Assembly (NCBI GenBank): GCA_024278215.1
Contig: JAJRTR010000204.1
Location: forward strand, 8,644-72,643
DNA: 64,000 nucleotides
Source of the DNA: a bacterium
GTDB lineage: Bacteria > UBP15 > UBA6099 > JAJRTR01
Direction: 5' to 3'
Under the pieces are notes generated by a model. It was given only the letters and a program-made list of their open reading frames with translations. It did not search any database and had not been told where the DNA came from. Below are positions 44,737 through 61,255 of the stretch, in pieces. The position numbers and the translations under genes were made by a program. Position 1 is the stretch's first letter. Each line of letters starts with the position of its first letter.

Positions 44737-45144
44737 ATGCCTGATAGAAAGATAAGAGTAATAATAGCGAAACCGGGTCTCGATGGTCACGACCGGGGCG
44801 CGAAAGTAGTGGCGCGTGCGTTGCGTGACGGCGGGATGGAAGTGATCTACCTGGGTCTACAGCAGACACCCGCGGATATAGTTAATGCGGCGATTCAGGA
44901 AGATGCGGATGTCATCGGGCTAAGCTCGCTCGCCGGTGCGCACATGACACATTTCAAACGTGTCCTTCAGTTGCTTAAAGACAACGATGCTGAAGATATT
45001 CTTACGGTCGGCGGCGGGATAATACCTGAAGAAGACAAGAAGGCGCTGCTCGACATGGGTGTCGCCGCGCTTTTCGATCCCGGCGCTCACACCGACGAGA
45101 TTATCAGGACAATCGAGCAGCTTGTCAAACAGCCTGTAGTTTAG
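44737..45144 (+). CDS. Methylmalonyl-CoA mutase, small (B12-binding) subunit
   Basis: A 135-residue cobalamin-binding domain with the DxHxxG box in GLDGHDRGAKVVARAL, SLAGAHM (SxL-type) and VGGGIIPEED. It carries the cofactor for the large mutase subunit encoded at 59591, giving a split, archaeal-type mutase that isomerises methylmalonyl-CoA and succinyl-CoA. The length is normal and the TAG stop is followed by no conserved sequence. It lies 14 kb from its partner, between a repeat and pheA. Confidence 0.92.
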   Translation: MPDRKIRVIIAKPGLDGHDRGAKVVARALRDGGMEVIYLGLQQTPADIVNAAIQEDADVIGLSSLAGAHMTHFKRVLQLLKDNDAEDILTVGGGIIPEEDKKALLDMGVAALFDPGAHTDEIIRTIEQLVKQPVV

Positions 45145-48138: not shown

Positions 48139-48747
48139 TTACCAGTGCCAGCCCAGTGAGCGGTTACGTTTCCTGAAAGTAATGTATATTGCTCCGGCGG
48201 CTGCGGCTTTCAATATTGCTCCGGGGATGAAGGGGACGAGGCCCATCATGACAACTTCGCGAATGCCTGTGCCGGTGACGAGTTTGAGGTGTAGACAGCC
48301 GAAGAAAAAGATTACGGCAAGTCCCGCGACAAGTGCTGAAGTTATTCTGAGAATGTTTTCCTTCTGAGAATCGTTGTTTCCGATTATGTAACCTATGACG
48401 GGCTGTGCGGCGAGAAAGCCGACGATGTATCCGCCTGTGGGGCCGGTGAGATGCGCTATGCCCACGCCCATGAGCGTGAACATGGGCATGCCCGCAATAC
48501 CAAGCACGATATATGCCGCCTGTGACACTGTTCCGTAGCGAGGACCAAGCAGCAGCGCGCCGAGCAGGACGAAAAACACTTGCATTGTGAAGGGCACAGG
48601 TGTGAAGGGGAGAGGAATCCTGATAAACGCGCCTATGGCTGTGAGAAATGTGAATGCCGCTATTCCAAGCATCACACTTATCTGTTTACTTATCAGAATA
48701 TCCCTGTTGGGAACTGAAGTTGCAATTTGTGGTCCTTGTATTCTCAT
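48139..48747 (-). CDS. bioY: Biotin transporter BioY
   Basis: BioY is the substrate-binding membrane subunit of biotin import (ECF type or working alone). The 202-residue protein has six hydrophobic segments and the family motifs PLPFTPVPFTMQVFFVLLGA, GPRYGTVSQAAYIVLGIAG and TGPTGGYIVGF. ATG 48747 has AAGGTG 6 nt upstream; GTG 48756 is the alternative and overlaps the birA stop. Its place next to birA and after the biotin-dependent carboxyltransferase genes makes biotin supply part of the same transcriptional unit. Confidence 0.93.
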   Translation of the reverse strand: MRIQGPQIATSVPNRDILISKQISVMLGIAAFTFLTAIGAFIRIPLPFTPVPFTMQVFFVLLGALLLGPRYGTVSQAAYIVLGIAGMPMFTLMGVGIAHLTGPTGGYIVGFLAAQPVIGYIIGNNDSQKENILRITSALVAGLAVIFFFGCLHLKLVTGTGIREVVMMGLVPFIPGAILKAAAAGAIYITFRKRNRSLGWHW

Positions 48748-48752
48748 GTCTT

Positions 48753-49520
48753 TCACCTTATCAGAGTGGTTTCTTCAAACTCGACTGATTCTGTCGATCC
48801 GTTGTCATTGTGAACGATGAGCCGCCCGCGGTTGTCGATGTCGACAGGAACAACCTTTCGCTTGTTGCCGTCCGGCGATTGCAGAATTACATTGCGCCCG
48901 AACAGCACAGCCCTTTTTCTCCATTCCGCAATGATGTTATCTAATGAACCGGATTTGAATTCAGCGATTCTATTATCTATCATAATCGTGATTATTTCAA
49001 GCATTTTTTCAATCGGCCAGTTATTGCCGGACAGTGATTTTACAGAAGTGGAATGCTCCTGTATTTCCGCAGGCAACTGCTCCGGCGAGTTGTTCACGTT
49101 GATCCCGATGCCGATTGCCACGAACGGAATACTATTTTCGACAGATGTCGCCTCGCACAATATTCCGGCGATTTTTTTCATATCGACGAGCACGTCGTTC
49201 GGCCAGCTGAGACCAATGGAATCGGGCGGCAGTCCGAGTTCCACGAAAACCTTTTCGAGCGCGTCCGCCGCAGCAACACCTGCTGCAATGGACAGAGCGG
49301 GAAGACGCGCGATGTCTTTTGCGCCGGGTCGCACAAGCACACTCATCCACAGGCCGCCGCATGGCGAGTGCCACACGCGGCCCCGGCGGCCACGCCCCGC
49401 ACGTTGCTCGGCGGCGACGGCTATGGTTCCGTCCGGCGCACCGGCAAGCCCCAGCCTTCGGATCTCGTCGTTTGTGGATTCCACCACGCCGAACCGGTGG
49501 ATTCTTTTTGTTTCAGGCAT
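48753..49520 (-). CDS. birA: Biotin-protein ligase (no repressor domain)
   Basis: The 255-residue protein attaches biotin to the carrier lysine. It shows GVVESTNDEIRR, the biotinyl-AMP loop AGRGRRGRVWHSP, and LSWPNDVLVDMKKIAGIL with the catalytic Lys region. There is no N-terminal helix-turn-helix domain, so it does not repress. ATG 49520 is chosen; the frame is open to TTG 49547 just after the carboxyltransferase stop. Its likely target is the biotin carrier at 58590-59063 in the same operon. Confidence 0.93.
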   Translation of the reverse strand: MPETKRIHRFGVVESTNDEIRRLGLAGAPDGTIAVAAEQRAGRGRRGRVWHSPCGGLWMSVLVRPGAKDIARLPALSIAAGVAAADALEKVFVELGLPPDSIGLSWPNDVLVDMKKIAGILCEATSVENSIPFVAIGIGINVNNSPEQLPAEIQEHSTSVKSLSGNNWPIEKMLEIITIMIDNRIAEFKSGSLDNIIAEWRKRAVLFGRNVILQSPDGNKRKVVPVDIDNRGRLIVHNDNGSTESVEFEETTLIR

Positions 49521-49558
49521 ATCCGGTATTCCGAATAATGGTTTCAATTACTTGGTGC

Positions 49559-52522
49559 CTACAGTGCGATATTGCCGTGTTTGCGGCGCGGTCGGTGCTC
49601 GCGTTTCGACTGGAGCATGTCCAGCGCGGTGATGATACGCTGGCGTGTGTCGTTCGGAGCGATAACATCGTCGATGTAGCCGAATTCCGCCGTGATGTAG
49701 GGATTGGCGAATTTTTCACGGTACTCGCGTGCGAGTTCGGCGCGTTTGGCTTCGGGGTCGGCAGCCTCGCTGATCTGTTTTCGCGCAATTATGTTGATCG
49801 CGCCGTCGGGGCCCATCACGGCAAGTTCGGCGGTGGGCCATGCGAGGTTGATGTCGCCGCCCGAGTGTTTCGAGCACATGACGTCGTATGCGCCGCCGTA
49901 AGCTTTTCGTGTGATGATCGTGATCTTCGGCACAGTCGCTTCGCAGAAGGCATAGAGGAGTTTCGATCCGTGGCTGATGATGCCGCCATGTTCCTGGTCT
50001 GTGCCGGGCAGGAAGCCGGGCACATCAACGAATGTGACGAGCGGGATATTGAAAGAGTCGCAGAACCGAACGAAGCGGGCTGATTTGCGCGACGCGCTGA
50101 TGTTGAGGCAGCCTGCGAGGTAGTTGGGCTGGTTGGCGACGATACCCACGGGGAAGCCGTTATAGCGGGCGAAGCCGACGACGATGTTCTGCGCGTAGTA
50201 CTGGGCGACTTCGAGGAATTCGCCGGCGTCGACGGTTTTAGCGATGACATTTTTTATATCGTAAGGGTGGTTCGGATCGTCGGGGAGGATGTCGACGAGG
50301 TTTTCGCCGGGTTCGAGAATCGCGTCGCGCGGCTCGGCAAGCGGGGGGTCTTCCATGTTGTTGGAGGGCATGTATTCGAGCATATAGCGAACGAGGTCGA
50401 GACAGTCTTTCTCGGTTGGTGTGACGAACTGAACGACGCCGCTTGTGGAGTTGTGGGCCATGGCGCCGCCGAGTTCCTCGAAGGAAACTTCCTCGCCTGT
50501 CGCGGCCTTGATGACCTGCGGGCCGGTGATGAACATGTGGCTGGTTTTGTCTACCATGGCGATGAAGTCGGTCATAGCGGGCGAATAGACCGCGCCGCCG
50601 GCGCACGGGCCGAGGATCGCGGATATCTGAGGCACGACGCCTGAGCTGAGCACGTTGCGGAAGAAGATGTCGCCGTAGCCGGCGAGGCTCGCGACGCCTT
50701 CCTGAATGCGAGCGCCGCCGCAGTCGTTAAGCCCGATCACAGGCGCTCCGGCCTTCATCGCAAGGTCCATGAGCTTGCATACTTTCTGCGCGTAGCGTTC
50801 ACCGAGCGCACCGCCGAAGACAGTGAAATCCTGCGAGAAGACGAACACCAGGCGACCGTTTATGTTGCCGTATCCGCAGGCGACGCCGTCTCCGATCGGC
50901 CTTTTCTTGTCGAGCCCGAAATCGCGGCACCTGTGGCGCACAAACCTGTCGATCTCGACGAAAGTGCCCTCGTCGAGCAGGTAATCGATTCTTTCGTAGG
51001 CGGTCATCTTGCCGCGTTCGTGCTGTTTGTCGATGGCCTTGAGACCGCCGCCGAGTTTCGCTTCTTCGGACATCGTTTCATAAAGCTTCATTTTTCGCTG
51101 GTTGTCCGTGAGAGATTCGTCTTCCTCCTTCTCGGGGAGAGTGATCTCCGGCGCGGGCCGTTCCGGTTCTTTCTGTTTTTCGAGACGCTTCTTGAAGAAG
51201 TCGACGGCGACCTGCGGGAACAGCACATAAGTGAGGACGTCTTCTTCCGACTGTTTCCACTCTTTGACGGCTTTGCGGGCGGCGGGCAACTCGGGTTTGA
51301 TGGTCGCGCCGGGCCTGTCGGTGATGGGTTCGATGTCGCCGATTGCTTTTTTGAGCAGTTTTTTATTTATCTTGCCGGGCGCGCGGCCGTAGAGTCCCTT
51401 AAGATAAAGTTTCACTTCCTCGGTGATGATTTTATAGCGCTCGCCGGTCATTACGTTTATCGTAGCCTGTACGCCGACGATCTGGCTCGAGGGCGTAACG
51501 AGTGGCGGGTAGCCGAGGTCTTTGCGCACGCGCGGCACTTCGTCGAGCACTTCGTCTATCTTGTCCAGCATATCCTGTTCCTTGAGCTGGTTGACCAGGT
51601 TGGAGAACATGCCGCCGGGGATCATGTGCACGAGGATGCCGGTGGAAACGCGCTCGGACAGTGGGTTCAGCAGGTCCGCGTAATTCTCACGGACATGTTT
51701 GAAGCGGTCGGAAATCTCGACAAGTTTCGCGAGATCGAGGCCGGTGTCGTGTTCCGTGCCACGGAGCGCGGCGACAGTGGTTTCGGTGGGAGGTTGCGAC
51801 GTGCCGCCGGAAAGGGGCGAAAGCGCCGTGTCGAGAATATCCACGCCCGCGTCGCACGCGGCCATATACGCCATCGGCGCCATGCCGCTTGTGCAGTGGC
51901 TGTGCAGATGCACGATGGTGTTGAGCTTTTTCTTTAGCGCTTTTGTCAGTTCATATACAGCCTGTGGCGTGATGACACCCGCCATATCTTTTATACATAT
52001 CGAGTCCGCGCCCAGCTCGTGGAGTTCGGTGGCCGTCTCGACAAACTTCTTTATCGTATGCACGGGGCTGACCGTGTATGAGATGGTGCCCTCGCAGTGT
52101 GCGCCGACTTTCTTCACTTCGCGCATCGCCACTTCCATGTTGCGCACGTCGTTAAGGGCGTCAAACACACGGAACACATCCACGCCGTTCTTGTGCGCGA
52201 GCTGCACGAATTTTTTCACAACATCGTCCGCGTAGTGTTTGTAGCCGACGACATTCTGCCCGCGCAGCAGCATCTGCATCGGTGTGTTGGGGCATGCCTT
52301 CTTGAATCGGCGTATACGTTCCCAGGGGTCTTCGCCGAGGAACCTGATGCAGGAGTCGAATGTCGCGCCGCCCCAGGTCTCGAGCGAGAAGAACCCGATT
52401 TTATCCATGTCCGAGGCGATGGGCATCATGTCGTCGATCTTCATACGCGTTGCAATCAGCGACTGGTGCGCGTCGCGGAATATCGTGTCTGTAAGCTGAA
52501 CTTTTTTGTTTTTCCTTGCCAT
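49559..52522 (-). CDS. Fused 5S-12S carboxyltransferase (transcarboxylase-like)
   Basis: Two normally separate subunits are joined in one 987-residue chain. Residues 1 to ~450 are a PYC/OADA-type biotin carboxyltransferase (5S subunit): [13 protein letters not shown] with metal ligand Asp12, CIKDMAG with the carbamylated-Lys position Lys178, and VHLHSHC with His205/His207. A charged linker (about 451-475) leads to an acyl-CoA carboxyltransferase (12S type): [13 protein letters not shown]-like core ([17 protein letters not shown]), [14 protein letters not shown] near 640 and AYGGAYDVM. There is no biotin site; the carrier is separate. In Propionibacterium these subunits make methylmalonyl-CoA:pyruvate transcarboxylase. 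No biotin carboxylase gene is present, which supports that role; a decarboxylase or carboxylase complex with genes elsewhere remains possible. Cytosolic. Stop is TAG. Confidence 0.9.
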
Positions 52523-52583: not shown

Positions 52584-52988
52584 CTACTCGCAGATTTCTA
52601 CAAGTATGCCGCCCGTCGCTTTTGGGTGGATGAAAGCGATTTTCTTATTGTGGGCACCGATGCGCGGCTTCTCGTCGATCATCCTCACGCCTGAAGCCAT
52701 AAGATTTTCGATGACCGATTCGATATTCTCGACAGCGATGGCAATGTGGTGGAGGCCGTCGCCTTTCTTGTCGAGGAATTTCGAGATGGGGCTGTCGTCG
52801 GTCGTCGGCTCGATCAGTTCGATTTTCGCGTCGCCCGTGTCGAGTATCGCGGCCTTCACCTTCTGCTCAGCGATCTCCTCGATGCCCTCGAATTCGAGTC
52901 CGATTAGGTCTTTATACAATCTGAGCTGCGCGTCGATGCTTTTGACGGCTATGCCTATGTGGTCGAGACCGTTTATTTTGTTTGCCAT
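52584..52988 (-). CDS. mce: Methylmalonyl-CoA epimerase
   Basis: This vicinal-oxygen-chelate protein of 134 residues converts (S)- and (R)-methylmalonyl-CoA. The metal-binding His of LDHIGIAVKS, the second His in GLHHIAIAVENI, and the Glu of ILVEICE are present, as are HPKATGG-type sequences. GGGGGA lies 8 nt before ATG 52988; an upstream frame to 53003 is unlikely. It sits between sdhB (186 nt) and the carboxyltransferase fusion (61 nt), in the order expected for a succinate-propionate pathway. Confidence 0.94.
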   Translation of the reverse strand: MANKINGLDHIGIAVKSIDAQLRLYKDLIGLEFEGIEEIAEQKVKAAILDTGDAKIELIEPTTDDSPISKFLDKKGDGLHHIAIAVENIESVIENLMASGVRMIDEKPRIGAHNKKIAFIHPKATGGILVEICE

Positions 52989-53174
52989 GATTATTTCCCC
53001 CATTTGATTTTATGTGTAGCTCGTCGAAAAAAAACGGTAGTGGAAGCCGGTGCCGGCGGTTTCCGGTGTTCCCGGGGGCCGGTCGGGTAACACACAGACT
53101 GAACGCTCCCGCGTTCACAACCTTTTCTTTTCGCTACAAACGATTGGTGATTGCCGGTCCGGTGTCGATTCAAG

Positions 53175-53870
53175 TTACAGATCATTCAATTTAAGTTTCA
53201 GTCTTGCGATAGCGTTTGTAATGTCGATGTCCTTGGGACACGCCTCGTTGCAGTTGAAAATTGTGTGGCACTTCCACGGCCCCTTGCTCGTGTTTATCAG
53301 GGCGAGCCGTTCCTTCTGTGCCTGGTCGCGCGTGTCGAATATGAACCTGTAGGCTTTGAGCAGAGCGGACGGGCCGATATAATCGTCGTCTGCCCAGAAC
53401 GAGGGGCACGAAGACGTGCATGAAGCACACAGGATGCAGGATGCGGCTTCGTCGATAAGCTCCTGGTCTTCCGGCCACTGTATCCGCTCGGTGTCCGGTG
53501 GCGGCGAATTGTTCACGAAATATGGCATGATCGAGTAGAATCTTTCATAGAAGCGGTCCAGGTTAACGATGAGGTCTTTCTCGAGCGGGAACGAGCGAAG
53601 CGGTTCGACGATGATGTTTTTTCCGACATTCTTTACAAGGGTCTGGCAGGCCAGTCGGTTCTGTCCGTTTATCGTCATGGCACAGGAACCGCAGATCGCG
53701 TGGCCGCAGGAGCGGCGGAAAGCGAGTGTGCCGTCCTGGTGCCATTTTATCTCGTGCAGGCAGTCGAGCACCGGTGTTTCCGGCTCGGCCTCGACCGTGA
53801 AATCCTCGAAGTGAGGCCGCCTGTCCTTTGCAGGGTTGAACCTCTTTATCCTGAAGCGGATCTTCTGCAT
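53175..53870 (-). CDS. sdhB: Succinate dehydrogenase/fumarate reductase iron-sulfur subunit
   Basis: The 231-residue subunit carries three cluster-binding sites: [2Fe-2S] in RRSCGHAICGSC and LAC, [4Fe-4S] in CILCASCTSSCP, and [3Fe-4S] in CHTIFNCNEACP with CPKDI. It transfers electrons between SdhA and the membrane subunits. The start ATG shares one base with the sdhA stop (TGATG), showing translational coupling. It can work toward fumarate reduction in a propionate-forming cycle or in the oxidative direction; the sequence does not decide. Confidence 0.95.
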   Translation of the reverse strand: MQKIRFRIKRFNPAKDRRPHFEDFTVEAEPETPVLDCLHEIKWHQDGTLAFRRSCGHAICGSCAMTINGQNRLACQTLVKNVGKNIIVEPLRSFPLEKDLIVNLDRFYERFYSIMPYFVNNSPPPDTERIQWPEDQELIDEAASCILCASCTSSCPSFWADDDYIGPSALLKAYRFIFDTRDQAQKERLALINTSKGPWKCHTIFNCNEACPKDIDITNAIARLKLKLNDL

Positions 53871-55579
53871 CAGTACTTCCTTTCCTTCGGCTGGTAGCGT
53901 GTTATCACCACATCGCGCCAGGCTGTATGTGGTTCTTTGTCTGTTTTAAACAGGAGTGTATGCTTGAGGAAATTCGCATCGTCGCGTTCGGTGAAATCCA
54001 CACGCGAGTGAGCGCCTCGACTCTCCTTGCGCTGCATGGCCGAGTAAGCGACCGCGGCAGCGAAATCGAGCATATTTTTCAGTTCCAGCGCTTCCTGGAG
54101 TTCGGTGTTGAACTGTTGCGTTTTGTCGTCAAGCGCGATTTTGTCGTAGTCGGCGGCGAGTTCGCGGACCTCATCATAAGCCTTCTGCATCCGTTTTTCT
54201 TCGCGGTACGCGCCGCAGTTTTCCATCATTGTGCCCTGCATCTTTTCGCGAAGTTCGGAAATCCTTATGCCGTCCGTTTTCGACAGCAGTTTCTTTATCA
54301 GTGCTTCGGTTTTCTTTTCGGGTCCGGCGGGCAGTGCCGGGCGTTGCGCTTCAGCAAGGTACTCACGCATATCTTTTCCTGTGCGGCGACCGAACACAAC
54401 AGTGTCCACCAGTGAATTACAGCCGAGCCGGTTCGCGCCATGGACCGATTCGCAGGCGGCTTCTCCGGCGGCGTAGAGGCCCGGAACCGGCGTGTTGTTT
54501 TCGTCGGCGATCACACGTCCCATAGTGTCGGTGGGAACGCCGCCCATCATGTAGTGGCCTGTGGGCATCACAGGTATCGGGTCCTTCGTGCAGTCGACGC
54601 CGACGTAAGTCATGCAGAACTTATAAATTTCAGGCAATTTTTTAAGGATGGCTTCGCGCCCGATGTGGTGTATCCGGAGATAGACATATTCTTTGCCGTT
54701 TATGCCGCGGCCCGCGGCGATTTCGTCATAGATAGCGCGTGAAATAATGTCGCGCGGGGCGAGGTCTTTCATGTCCGGCGCGTACCTTTCCATGAAGGGC
54801 TCGCCTTCGGAATTTATAAGTATGCCGCCCTCGCCGCGCACGCCCTCGGTGATGAGTATGCCGAGCGGATAGAGTCCGGTGGGGTGGAACTGCGCGAACT
54901 CCATATCCTGGAGCGGTATGCCCGCGTTGAATGCCATCGCGTAGCCGTCGCCAGTGCCTACATGCGCGTTCGACGTGATCCTGTAGATGCGGCCGCCGCC
55001 GCCCGTGGCAATCATTATCGCTGTGCAGTGGAATATGTGCAGTTCGCCCGTTTTCATGTCTGCCGCCACCGCGCCGCAGACCGTGCCGCCGTTCAACAGT
55101 AGTTCGGTGACGAAGAATTCGCTGTAGTAGTTGACTTTCGCGCGTACGCTCTGCTCGAACAGCGAGTGCAGGATAACATGGCCGGTGCGGTCGGCGGCGT
55201 AGCACGCGCGTGGGTGCGAGTGGCCGCCGAACGGTCGCTGCGCGATCCGGCCTTCGGGCGTTCGGCTGAACGGAACGCCTATATGTTCGAGTTCATACAC
55301 GGTCGGTATCGCGTTGTTGCAGAGAATCTCGATCTGGTTCTGGTCGCCGAGATAGTCGCTGCCCTTGACGGTGTCGAACATGTGTTCCTCGGGCGAGTCG
55401 GGTTCCATGTTGCCGAGCGCGGCGGCGATGCCGCCCTGCGCGGTGGTCGAGTGCGAGCGCGTGGGGAACACTTTCGTCAGGACCGCCACGCTGCATGTGT
55501 CGGCAAGTTCGATAGCCGCCCGCGTTCCCGCCAGTCCCGCCCCGATAATCAGAACATCATAAGTATGAAGTTTCGCCAT
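53870..55579 (-). CDS. sdhA: Succinate dehydrogenase/fumarate reductase flavoprotein
   Basis: A 569-residue flavoprotein with the dinucleotide fold IIGAGLAGTRAA, the FAD-linking His region RSHSTTAQGGIAAALGN, PFGGHSHPRACYAADRTGH, the substrate site EFAQFHPTGLYPLG and TEGVRGEGG, and GANRLGCNSLVD. It interconverts succinate and fumarate at the membrane. The preceding sdhD is 24 nt away and sdhB overlaps its stop, giving the canonical sdhCDAB order, directly downstream of sucCD. Confidence 0.96.
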   Translation of the reverse strand: MAKLHTYDVLIIGAGLAGTRAAIELADTCSVAVLTKVFPTRSHSTTAQGGIAAALGNMEPDSPEEHMFDTVKGSDYLGDQNQIEILCNNAIPTVYELEHIGVPFSRTPEGRIAQRPFGGHSHPRACYAADRTGHVILHSLFEQSVRAKVNYYSEFFVTELLLNGGTVCGAVAADMKTGELHIFHCTAIMIATGGGGRIYRITSNAHVGTGDGYAMAFNAGIPLQDMEFAQFHPTGLYPLGILITEGVRGEGGILINSEGEPFMERYAPDMKDLAPRDIISRAIYDEIAAGRGINGKEYVYLRIHHIGREAILKKLPEIYKFCMTYVGVDCTKDPIPVMPTGHYMMGGVPTDTMGRVIADENNTPVPGLYAAGEAACESVHGANRLGCNSLVDTVVFGRRTGKDMREYLAEAQRPALPAGPEKKTEALIKKLLSKTDGIRISELREKMQGTMMENCGAYREEKRMQKAYDEVRELAADYDKIALDDKTQQFNTELQEALELKNMLDFAAAVAYSAMQRKESRGAHSRVDFTERDDANFLKHTLLFKTDKEPHTAWRDVVITRYQPKERKY

Positions 55580-55603: not shown

Positions 55604-55996
55604 TTATTTGAACGGAAACCCCAGTATTGTTATTGTTCCGAGCGCATACAGGAGTATGCCGGACAGGATAAGCGCCGAATATATGGCGAGCCGCCAACTG
55701 TTTGTTTGCACATAGTCGGCGACGACGACCCACACACCGGCGAATCCGTGGTACAGCGCGAATGTCAGGAATGCCATATCGAAACACTTCCACAGCGGGT
55801 TCGAGAGCCGGTTCGCCACTACGTCGTAGGTCACTTCGCCCGTGCCGATCAGGTGGTTTATGCCGAAGTGAAGAAGGATGATCAGCACGATAAAAAGACC
55901 TGTGAGCCGCTGGAACAGCCATGTGCGCGAGCCGCCTGTCCCGGTGTTTCTGACCCACATCGACTGCGTATGTTCCTGTTTTTTCTCGTCCGACAT
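55604..55996 (-). CDS. sdhD: Succinate dehydrogenase membrane anchor subunit
   Basis: This protein has 130 residues and three membrane helices. It begins with a polar stretch, then [20 protein letters not shown], with an Arg and a His near the haem/quinone site, and [16 protein letters not shown]. Its small size and helix pattern fit SdhD of the type C/D enzymes. Located between sdhC (73 nt) and sdhA (24 nt). Confidence 0.87.
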
Positions 55997-56069: not shown

Positions 56070-56450
56070 TTAATGAGCGAGTGCGTTCAACAGGTGCCCC
56101 GCAATCGGCGCCGCGCCCGCGACGAACAGCGCGGCGGCTATCACCATCATGATCCAGAAAAGCTGTTTCTGTATCTTCGTGCCGCCCCAGAAATCTATGA
56201 TTATCACACGCAGGCCGTTGAAAGCGTGGTAGAGTATCACGCCCAGCAGGCCGATCTCCATCAACTTGAACGCAGGCGAGCCGAGCAGTTCCATCACCCT
56301 GTCGAATCGTTCGGGGCCGTAGGCCAAGTTGTGGATCACGAATATGTGCAGGCAAAGGTAGGCGACGAGCGCGAGTCCCGACAGCCTGTGCAGCGCCCAG
56401 GAGACCATCCCGAGCTTCCACCTGTATCGAAATTCAAATATCGGTTTCAT
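56070..56450 (-). CDS. sdhC: Succinate dehydrogenase cytochrome b subunit
   Basis: The 126-residue product has three hydrophobic helices. The motif [19 protein letters not shown] and the downstream [12 protein letters not shown] match SdhC, including the His residues that ligate haem b and the Ser-Arg quinone-site region. It is the first of sdhCDAB, 101 nt after sucD. Confidence 0.88.
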
Positions 56451-56551: not shown

Positions 56552-57418
56552 TCAGTCGATACGTTCTTTAACTTTGTCGACGAGTTCAGACACGAGCCCC
56601 GCCACCGGCGCGCCCGCCGCCTCCAGCGCTTCTATCTTCGACTCCGCCGTACCGACACCGCCCGATATTATCGCCCCGGCGTGTCCCATGCGCTTGCCTT
56701 TTGGCGCAGTTCGCCCGGATATAAATGCTACGACCGGCTTCGACATGGTTTTGATATATTCCGCCGCCCGCTCTTCGTCCGTGCCGCCGATCTCGCCCAC
56801 CATCACGACGACTTTTGTGTCCGGATCGTTCTCGAACATCTCCAGCACATCAATAAAAGTCGTACCGATTATCGGGTCGCCGCCTATGCCTATGACAGTC
56901 GTCTGGCCCGCGCCCGCGTGTGACAGTTCCGAAGCCACTTCATAGGTAAGTGTTCCGCTTCGGGAGATAATGCCCACGGGACCCGGCTCGAAAATGTGGC
57001 CGGGCATGATGCCCACTTTAGATTTGCCGACCGTCACCAGCCCCGGGCAATTCGGGCCGACAAGTCTCGATCCGCCCTCCCGCAGACGCTGGTTTATCTC
57101 GATCATATCCTTCACCGGGATGCCCTCGGTGATGCAGATAACCAGCGGCACATCGTTGAAAAGCGACTCGCGTATCGCGCCGGGCGCGAACGGAGCGGCG
57201 ACGAATATTATAGATGTATTCGCTCCGGTTTCCTTCACGCAATCCTCGACCGTGTCGAACACCGGCACGCCGTCGATAGCCTGTCCGCCCTTGCCGGGCG
57301 TTACGCCGCCCACGACATTTGTGCCGTACTCGATCATGCGCGCGAGATGGAACGAACCGTCGCGCCCCGTGATACCCTGTATGAGTACTTTTGTGTTTTC
57401 GTCTATCAGAATTCCCAT
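56552..57418 (-). CDS. sucD: Succinyl-CoA synthetase alpha subunit
   Basis: The 288-residue subunit binds CoA ([13 protein letters not shown] region) and carries the phosphohistidine in [19 protein letters not shown] and [17 protein letters not shown] are also characteristic. With SucC it interconverts succinyl-CoA and succinate with NTP or NDP. ATG 57418 has AAAGGTG 8 nt upstream; the longer frame to 57451 is less likely. It follows sucC by 42 nt. Confidence 0.95.
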
Positions 57419-57460
57419 ATTAACGCACCTTTCGGAGCTTATGCCACACACGATTGTCGA

Positions 57461-58588
57461 TTATTTCACCGCGACCGCTTTTTTTACAGCGTCTTCCATG
57501 CGGGTGTCGGCGGAAATATTCTCTTTTTCCAGCATCTCGCGGGCGATCTCCTCGTTCGTGCCCGACAGCCTGATGAAGACCGGCCGGTCGATATTCTCGC
57601 TCCGCAGCGCTCCGATGAAACCGGCCGCGACATCGTCGCAGCGCGTGATGCCGCCGAATATATTTATCAGGATCGACTTCACATTTTTGTCACTGAGTAT
57701 CAGTTTCATTGCCTGCTTCATTTTTTCCGTATTCGAGCTGCCGCCGATATCCAGAAAGTTAGCGGGCTCGCCGCCGAAGTGTTTTACCATGTCCATCGTC
57801 GCCATGGCCAGCCCCGCGCCGTTGACTATGCAGCCTACGTTCCCGTCCAGTTTCACATAACTGAGTCCGTATTCTTTCGCTTTCACTTCGTCGGGGTTTT
57901 CCGGGTCGGCGCGTTCGAACTCTTTTATTTCTTTCCGGCGGTACATCGCGTTGTCGTCGGTGATGATCTTCGCGTCGACGAGAACGAGGTTTCCTTCGTC
58001 GGTCACCACCAGTGGGTTGATCTCCAGCAGTGTCAGGTCCATGTCCACAAACATATCGTAGAGCGCCAGCGCAAGTTTGATGAACTGATTGTGGAGTTCG
58101 CGCGGCACACCCATCGCGGCGGCGGCGCGTCGCACCTGGAAATCATATATCTTTCCTCTGGTGTCGGAAGTTATCTTAAGGATAGCCTCCGGGTTTTCTT
58201 TTGCCGTTTCCTCGATATCGACGCCGCCTTCGCCGCTCAGGATCATAGTGCAGGCGCGTTTTTCGCGGTCGAAAATGACACCGAAGTAAAATTCTTTTGC
58301 TATATCGCAAGCCCTGGTAACGAGCAGTTTTTTCACCGGCAAGCCCTTGATCGTGAGCCCCAGTATTTTCTCCGCAGTGGGCACGACATCTTCCATACTG
58401 CCTACAACCCTGACACCGCCCGCCTTGCCGCGCCCGCCGACATGCACCTGCGCTTTGAGCACCACCGGCAGGCCGATCTCTTCGACTATTTCCGGCACTT
58501 CCGCCGCACTCGCCGCCACGCGGCCCGGCATAATCGGCATCCCGTTTTTCCCGAGAAGTTCTTTCGACTGGTATTCGTGAAGTTTCAC
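57461..58588 (-). CDS. sucC: Succinyl-CoA synthetase beta subunit
   Basis: An ATP-grasp subunit of 375 residues with the N-terminal MKLHEYQSKELL, VLKAQVHVGGRGKAGGV, LEINPLVVT and INIFGGITRCD motifs. GTG 58588 has GGAGG 5 nt upstream inside the end of the biotin-carrier gene, and only 1 nt separates the genes. In the Wood-Werkman direction SucCD makes succinyl-CoA, the substrate of the mutase. Confidence 0.95.
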   Translation of the reverse strand: MKLHEYQSKELLGKNGMPIMPGRVAASAAEVPEIVEEIGLPVVLKAQVHVGGRGKAGGVRVVGSMEDVVPTAEKILGLTIKGLPVKKLLVTRACDIAKEFYFGVIFDREKRACTMILSGEGGVDIEETAKENPEAILKITSDTRGKIYDFQVRRAAAAMGVPRELHNQFIKLALALYDMFVDMDLTLLEINPLVVTDEGNLVLVDAKIITDDNAMYRRKEIKEFERADPENPDEVKAKEYGLSYVKLDGNVGCIVNGAGLAMATMDMVKHFGGEPANFLDIGGSSNTEKMKQAMKLILSDKNVKSILINIFGGITRCDDVAAGFIGALRSENIDRPVFIRLSGTNEEIAREMLEKENISADTRMEDAVKKAVAVK

Positions 58589-58589
58589 A

Positions 58590-59063
58590 TCAACCTCCGG
58601 TTTTTATCGTACACATCACATTGCCTTTTTTCATGATATCGCCGACATTCACAGAAATGGAAACGACGGTCCCGCTTGCCGTAGCGAGTATCGAGTTCTC
58701 CATCTTCATGGCTTCGAGGATGAAAACCGTGTCGCCTTTTTTTATCGTGTCGCCTTCGGCGGCCTTGACGGCAACTACCTTGCCAGCCATCGGCGCGACG
58801 ATTTTCGCGTCTCCGGCACCGGCTCCGGCATCCGCACCGGCGGGCGGGGCGGCTTTTGTCGTCGCCTGGGACGGACTCGGCGCTTTATCCGCCGACACCG
58901 TAAATGTCGGCACACTCCGGGCCGCCGCCTGCTCCTTTTCAACAGCAACCCTGAACTCCTTGCCCTACACATCGACAGTGAAACACTTCCGCGCACCTTC
59001 CGTGCCCTCGCTTTTCACAACGACCTCGAATTTATCTCCATCTACTTCAATTTTATATTTCAA
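58590..59063 (-). CDS. Biotin carboxyl carrier protein with an in-frame TAG near its 5' end
   Basis: This 1.3S-type carrier shuttles carboxyl groups between the two active sites of the carboxyltransferase. The C-terminal biotinyl domain is intact: IVAPMAGKVVAVK, then ILEAMKMENS with the biotinylated Lys, and VNVGDIMKKGNVMC. A Pro/Ala/Gly hinge precedes it. Starting at TTG 59063 (GGAGG 9 nt upstream), codon 33 is TAG (58967-58965), in the conserved FTVDV-GKEFRV segment where most carriers have Asn, Asp or Glu. Readthrough would give 157 residues. Alternatively GTG 58913 restarts translation and yields a 107-residue protein with the whole biotinyl domain. A GAG-to-TAG change, a sequencing error, or suppression are possible. 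Confidence 0.82.
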
Positions 59064-59475: not shown

Positions 59476-59590
59476 AGAAATTCGTAATCAGCCGGAAATC
59501 ATGACATTGCGCCGATGACTGAATCCGGTGCGGCAGACGCGCGGACAGGCGTGTTTCAATACAGTTCATTTCACACAGGAGGCAAAGGCT

Positions 59591-61255
59591 ATGACCGACA
59601 TCGACAGGATCAAACAGGAAAAAGAGAAATGGGAAAATGAAAAAGTCGACAAGGTGACCGCCAGATTTCCGGAAATGAAGGAACAGTTTGAAACACCGTC
59701 GGGCATTCCCGTGGAAAGACTGTACACACCGCCTGATACGGAAGAAGTCGACTATGTCGACGATATCGGTTTTCCCGGCGAATATCCCTTTACGCGCGGC
59801 GTGCAGCCGACGATGTACCGCAGCCGCTACTGGACGATGCGCCAGTATGCCGGGTTCGGCTCGGCGGAGGAAACGAACAAGCGGTTTCGCTACCTGATAG
59901 AACAGGGCCAGAAGGGGTTGAGCGTCGCATTCGACCTGCCGACCCAGATGGGCTACGACTCGGACGACGAACTTGTCGAGGGCGAAGTGGGCAAGACGGG
60001 CGTCGCCATCGACTCGGTGCGCGACATGGAGATTCTTTTCGACGGCATCGACCTTGGCAGGATCAGCACTTCGATGACGATCAACGCGCCCGCGAATGTT
60101 CTGCTTGCTTTCTACATCATCGTCGCGGAGAAAAACGGCGCGAAACAGGAAGACCTGAAAGGAACGATACAGAACGACATATTAAAGGAATATACCGCGC
60201 GCGGTACATATATATTTCCACCCGCGCCGTCGATGCGGCTTATCACCGACATATTCAGCTACTGCGGCGCGCACGTGCCGAAATGGAACACCATCAGCAT
60301 CAGCGGCTACCACATCCGCGAGGCGGGCGCGACGGCTGTGCAGGAAGTCGCTTTCACCATCGCCGACGGTATCGCCTATGTCGAAGCCGCGCTGGAAGCA
60401 GGACTGGACCTCGACGCGTTCGCGGGCCGCCTCAGCTTTTTCTTCAACGCGCACAGCAATCTTTTCGAGGAAATCGCCAAATTCCGCGCGGCGCGTCGCA
60501 TGTGGGCGAAGATTATGAAGGAGCGCTTCGGAGCGAAGAATCCGCGTTCGATGATGCTGCGTTTCCACACCCAGACGGCGGGCTCGATGCTCACAGCGCA
60601 GCAGGCGGAGAACAACATAGTGCGCGTGACGCTACAAGCGCTTGCCGGTGTGCTTGGCGGCACGCAGTCGCTGCACACGAACTCGATGGACGAAGCGCTC
60701 GCGCTCCCCACGGAAGACGCCGCCCGCATCGCGCTGCGCACACAACAGATAATCGCCCACGAGAGCGGCGCGGCCGACACCATCGACCCGCTGGCAGGCT
60801 CATACTTTATCGAATCGCTCACCGGCGAAATCGAAAAACGCGCCTTCGAGTACATCGACAAAATCGACAAAATGGGCGGCGCGGTCAAGTCGATCGAGAA
60901 AAATTACATGCAGGAGGAGATACATAACTCGGCCTATAAGTGGCAGAAAGAAGTCGAGCAGAACAAGCGTGTCGTCGTCGGCGTGAATAAGTTCCGGATC
61001 GAGGAAAAGACACGCCCGCCGCACTTCCATCTCAATCCGGAAATGGAAAAAGCGCAGAGAGAAAAACTCGCCCGCCTGCGCGACGAACGCGACGGCGACG
61101 CCGTGGACGCCGCGCTCGCGAAACTGAAGTTGCAGGCTCAAGACCCGAAAGGCGAGTTGTTTCCGTACATACTCGACGCGGCCCGCCGCGAGGCCACTCT
61201 CGGCGAAATATGCAACACACTCCGCGCCGTTTTCGGCGTGTACAGGGCAAAGTAG
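59591..61255 (+). CDS. Methylmalonyl-CoA mutase, large (catalytic) subunit
   Basis: The 554-residue protein is the catalytic barrel without the B12-binding domain, which is encoded separately at 44737. Family motifs include [69 protein letters not shown] (catalytic His), and [19 protein letters not shown]. It interconverts succinyl-CoA and (R)-methylmalonyl-CoA. ATG 59591 has AGGAGG about 9 nt upstream; an upstream GTG at 59528 is not supported. It is divergent from the operon that supplies and removes its substrates. Stop is TAG. Confidence 0.94.

Follow-up and report, generated by a model that had tools for sequence, protein, structure and literature searches.

A single open reading frame in the window (the whole stretch of 64,000 nucleotides analyzed here) appears to carry both carboxyltransferases of the classic Propionibacterium transcarboxylase, whose 5S and 12S subunits are separate proteins in a 26S complex, and it raises the question of whether such a fusion is genuine and which biotin-dependent enzyme it would form. 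Its parts are the following.

49559..52522, minus strand: fused 5S-12S carboxyltransferase, 987 aa (intact open reading frame; Pfam and PDB matches to both subunits)
51179..52522, minus strand: 5S-type oxaloacetate/pyruvate carboxyltransferase half, residues 1-448 (domain and PDB matches)
51077..51178, minus strand: charged tether, residues ~449-482 (gap between the homologous regions)
49562..51076, minus strand: 12S/PccB-type acyl-CoA carboxyltransferase half, residues 483-987 (Pfam and PDB matches)

The frame runs uninterrupted through 987 codons from ATG to TAG, and Pfam places HMGL-like at residues 7-272, PYC_OADA at 296-465 and Carboxyl_trans at 499-985, the last with 657.5 bits (E = 1.6e-197). 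The metal site of 5S (an Asp, a carbamylated Lys and two His), numbered D23/K184/H215/H217 in the literature, is present by alignment as D17, K178, H207 and H209. Comparison with solved chains matches residues 6-448 to the transcarboxylase 5S subunit (1rqb) and the C-terminal half to PccB and the 12S subunit (1vrg at 479-987, 1xnv at 475-987 and 1on3, i.e., 12S, at 486-985 with E = 1.3e-174), while the N-terminal half also matches the 5S relatives PycB and OadA in sequence. The earlier note, which had read the polypeptide as a 5S-type joined to a 12S-type carboxyltransferase with the metal and Lys ligands of the former kept, is thus borne out on both points. D880 of the C-terminal half aligns with D422 of PccB, a residue conserved in propionyl-CoA carboxylases (PMC7835884), a position that would favor propionyl-CoA and biases the choice of substrate without fixing it.

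The linker was correctly described as charged (50% of its residues), and its proposed length of ~25 residues was a fair estimate of the ~34 (449-482) given by the homology boundaries. An AlphaFold2 model of the fusion, built on a 28-row alignment from which one plasmid-collection row was left out, has a mean pLDDT of 76.9 and a pTM of 0.52. Confidence is good over most of the 5S half and more uneven over the 12S half, which was modeled as a single monomer although its family is hexameric; the lowest values (pLDDT <50) fall on the tether core, residues 452-468. The model fits a flexible tether, the relative placing of the two halves and the oligomer being beyond its reach.

From its gene assignments, the surroundings of the fusion read as a complete succinate/propionate cluster.

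44737..45144, plus strand: methylmalonyl-CoA mutase B12-binding subunit (TIGR00640, 155.6 bits, above cut-off)
48139..48756, minus strand: BioY biotin transporter component (PF02632)
48753..49547, minus strand: biotin protein ligase (TIGR00121, 156.1 bits, above cut-off; Pfam)
52584..53003, minus strand: methylmalonyl-CoA epimerase (TIGR03081, 163.7 bits, above cut-off)
53175..53870, minus strand: succinate dehydrogenase/fumarate reductase iron-sulfur subunit (PF13085 and 4Fe-4S matches)
53870..55579, minus strand: succinate dehydrogenase/fumarate reductase flavoprotein (PF00890, PF02910)
55604..55996, minus strand: Sdh membrane subunit (PF01127)
56070..56450, minus strand: Sdh membrane subunit (PF01127)
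56552..57451, minus strand: probable succinyl-CoA synthetase alpha, SucD (reading of the translation)
57461..58588, minus strand: probable succinyl-CoA synthetase beta, SucC (reading of the translation)
58590..58913, minus strand, frame open to 58964: biotin carrier, Biotin_lipoyl domain with EAMKM (Pfam and motif)
59528..61255, plus strand: methylmalonyl-CoA mutase large subunit (PF01642, E = 5.8e-232)

In content it resembles the mmc cluster of Pelotomaculum thermopropionicum (PMC6046458), where transcarboxylase, epimerase, mutase and Scs genes also lie together, but, unlike in the window, in the company of genes for fumarase, malate dehydrogenase and pyruvate:ferredoxin oxidoreductase. The Biotin_lipoyl frame in the cluster agrees with the earlier claim that the carrier is encoded apart from the fusion. 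Its gene (58590-59063, minus strand) is parted by a TAG at 58965-58967 into a recognizable N-terminal segment and an intact biotin domain; the carrier has a GTG start, upstream of which the frame runs on toward the N-terminal segment until the TAG. The same codon also ends the fusion and several neighboring genes, and in the carrier it may reflect a nonsense mutation, a sequencing error or downstream initiation.

Very probably the fusion unites in one chain the two catalytic subunits of a methylmalonyl-CoA:pyruvate carboxyltransferase (Wood-Werkman transcarboxylase, EC 2.1.3.1) and serves as the core of that enzyme. The features of such an enzyme that can be looked for in sequence appear to be in place, i.e., the 5S ligands, the 12S half, a carrier in the cluster and no biotin carboxylase partner found, and the assignment is reached by elimination, since neither a biotin carboxylase nor a subunit of a Na+-pumping decarboxylase was found in this 95%-complete genome. 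Several observations count against it: the genome is 95.2% complete, so that a biotin carboxylase may have been missed, and one is present in a genome of the same order; the carrier frame is broken by the TAG upstream of the biotin domain; and the fusion scores below the curated NCBIfam cut-offs of the mmdA and oadA models and reaches 571.5 bits with the 5S model PRK12330, against a cut-off of 827.

For its substrates, activity, direction and assembly we infer the following scheme. CO2 would pass between (S)-methylmalonyl-CoA and the biotin on the separate carrier at the C-terminal half, and between carboxybiotin and pyruvate/oxaloacetate at the N-terminal half. The net reaction would be methylmalonyl-CoA + pyruvate = propionyl-CoA + oxaloacetate, with no need for ATP, free CO2 or Na+ pumping. 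Held near each other by the flexible tether, the two sites would be served by a single carrier. The pathway could run toward propionate formation or oxidation, the sequence alone fitting no single sense.

The main competitor, which we regard as improbable, is a bifunctional carboxylase whose carrier is charged by an ATP-dependent biotin carboxylase encoded elsewhere, the fusion then making both oxaloacetate and methylmalonyl-CoA. It gains from the Giardia fusion discussed below, described as ACC plus PC domains in PMC8700996, and from the biotin carboxylase of the same-order relative (G001). However, the genome of the window (4.55 Mb) has no match to PF02785 at its 95% completeness, whereas 13 of 14 controls do, and biotin-carrier matches in it amount to one strong and one weak partial. 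The earlier note had named a biotin carboxylase gene closely linked to this family as evidence that would speak against its reading, and this search returned none.

Quite unlikely, too, is that the enzyme supplies malonyl-CoA, converting oxaloacetate and acetyl-CoA to malonyl-CoA and pyruvate in place of an acetyl-CoA carboxylase for lipids, although the genome search found no acetyl-CoA carboxylase component except the fusion. Neither FabD nor a full-length ketoacyl synthase was found in this genome and six relatives from its phylum (seven genomes, the best 95% and 97% complete), which would leave malonyl-CoA without a fatty acid synthase to consume it; ketoacyl synthase matches were short and partial only, AccA-family matches lay only within 12S-type proteins, and type II fatty acid synthesis appears, from these searches, to be missing from all seven. 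The preference for propionyl-CoA suggested by D880 and the location of the genes in a propionate cluster also argue against this function. A further alternative, the core of a Na+-pumping oxaloacetate or methylmalonyl-CoA decarboxylase working with a membrane beta subunit, is favored by the good scores that the two halves likewise obtain with the oadA and mmdA models, but it has little probability, as such a pump has no need for both carboxyltransferases and the genome has no match to OAD_beta (PF03977; OadB/MmdB) in a search that did match two of the 14 controls.

The transcarboxylase reading, like its competitors, presupposes a genuine fusion, and its occurrence was examined by searching for six peptide patterns in 84,980 species genomes, retaining the best 80 of 423 loci and reading their open reading frames. 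Among these 80 there is one further true fusion. This locus (L004), of 1013 aa, lies in the MAG CSSed162cmB_222 (SKWY01000368.1), titled Deltaproteobacteria, i.e., in another phylum than the genome of the window, and has the same 5S-tether-12S order, no stop and 70% identity to the window fusion over its whole length. Its tether is longer (86 residues between LFPQVA and AIDKQH, as opposed to 62), and its carrier, also encoded separately, differs in lying directly upstream, at 95 nt. No biotin carboxylase match was found in its genome, which may reflect either an assembly gap (a possibility raised by the presence of FabD, completeness not being given) or an unusual malonyl-CoA supply. FabD and ketoacyl synthase are both present in that genome.

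Elsewhere among the best 80 of 423, every locus that showed both genes has them separate, 12S then 5S. Of 16 apparently full-length loci, 15 proved to be two such neighboring genes, as did a Subdoligranulum plasmid (H1), and the long frame of another candidate (L075) is a 12S gene with an unrelated upstream frame. Separate 12S and 5S genes, adjoining or near and in that order, occur in three records titled archaea (L005, L007, L017) and in five Planctomycetota (L006, L012, L023, L041, L048). Six other genomes of the window's own phylum, 194 other genomes of the phylum of L004 and 392 genomes of the phylum of L006 yielded no additional fusion, the positive control for the last search lying elsewhere, in the query match obtained in the search of L004's phylum; in the window's own genome, neither the fusion nor its halves recur. 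As a scan by peptide pattern can miss diverged fusions, the claim is one of rarity and not of two cases only: the 5S-12S fusion rearranges a known enzyme in a rare way and is not a new kind of enzyme.

That a frameshift or misassembly erased the stop between two ordinary genes is scarcely credible even though 5S and 12S genes are separate in nearly all related loci that have both nearby (among the best 80 of 423), since the independent MAG holds a homologous fusion of the same order, 70% identical and without a stop, which excludes a local assembly error (the objection that the earlier note had itself raised), and since the usual order of the neighbors is the reverse of that in the fusion.

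Separate phylogenies of the two halves, as had been proposed, show the two fusions as sisters in the maximum likelihood trees of both the N-terminal (bootstrap 100, SH-aLRT 99) and the C-terminal half (SH-aLRT 100). The best explanation of this agreement is one fusion event, from which both most likely descend, followed by transfer between lineages, in one direction or the other. An earlier study inferred that transcarboxylase genes have been transferred laterally in Pelobacter propionicus (PMC2669807).

Among known systems, the Propionibacterium transcarboxylase (12S, 5S and 1.3S; PDB 1on3 and 1rqb) resembles the window in both catalytic folds, the active-site residues, the separate carrier and the propionate pathway, and differs in having its catalytic subunits on two chains. 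A precedent for a single chain comes from Giardia intestinalis, whose fusion has the acyl-CoA carboxyltransferase first, whereas in the window the pyruvate carboxyltransferase comes first. According to PMC8700996 (citing Jordan et al. 2003), this protein (GL50803_113021, 1338 aa) has both carboxyltransferase types on one polypeptide, like the window, together with the carrier, which in the window is encoded separately at 58590-58913. The earlier statement that no characterized example was known therefore has to be narrowed: a single chain with both carboxyltransferases is on record, although the Giardia protein, unlike that of the window, also holds the carrier. Joining the two enzymes is thus already known from Giardia, and no description of the bacterial form with a separate carrier turned up in the literature searched, which lay mostly outside subscription journals.

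In the 26S particle of Propionibacterium, each 12S hexamer carries six 5S dimers, which gives a 5S:12S ratio of 2:1. Such a ratio would be beyond the reach of a fusion, and the 1:1 stoichiometry that the earlier note expected it to enforce would correspond to the smaller, 18S-like form and not to the complete 26S complex. It is possible, though doubtful, that the fusion forms a 1:1 particle unlike 26S, such as three 5S dimers tethered to one 12S hexamer. The tether would there act as the scaffold in place of the carrier, and the carrier, having lost its N-terminal segment to the stop, would be only a shuttle; the whole would be the only biotin-dependent enzyme in a lineage where type II fatty acid synthesis was looked for and not found. 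The fusion shows, in two phyla, a classic multi-subunit enzyme in natural single-chain form with its carrier kept apart, and makes it testable how much of the large transcarboxylase architecture carboxybiotin needs to pass between distant sites. If its activity is as proposed, the fusion and its carrier would make up a compact two-gene module for ATP-independent carboxyl transfer whose expression could be of use in propionate engineering.
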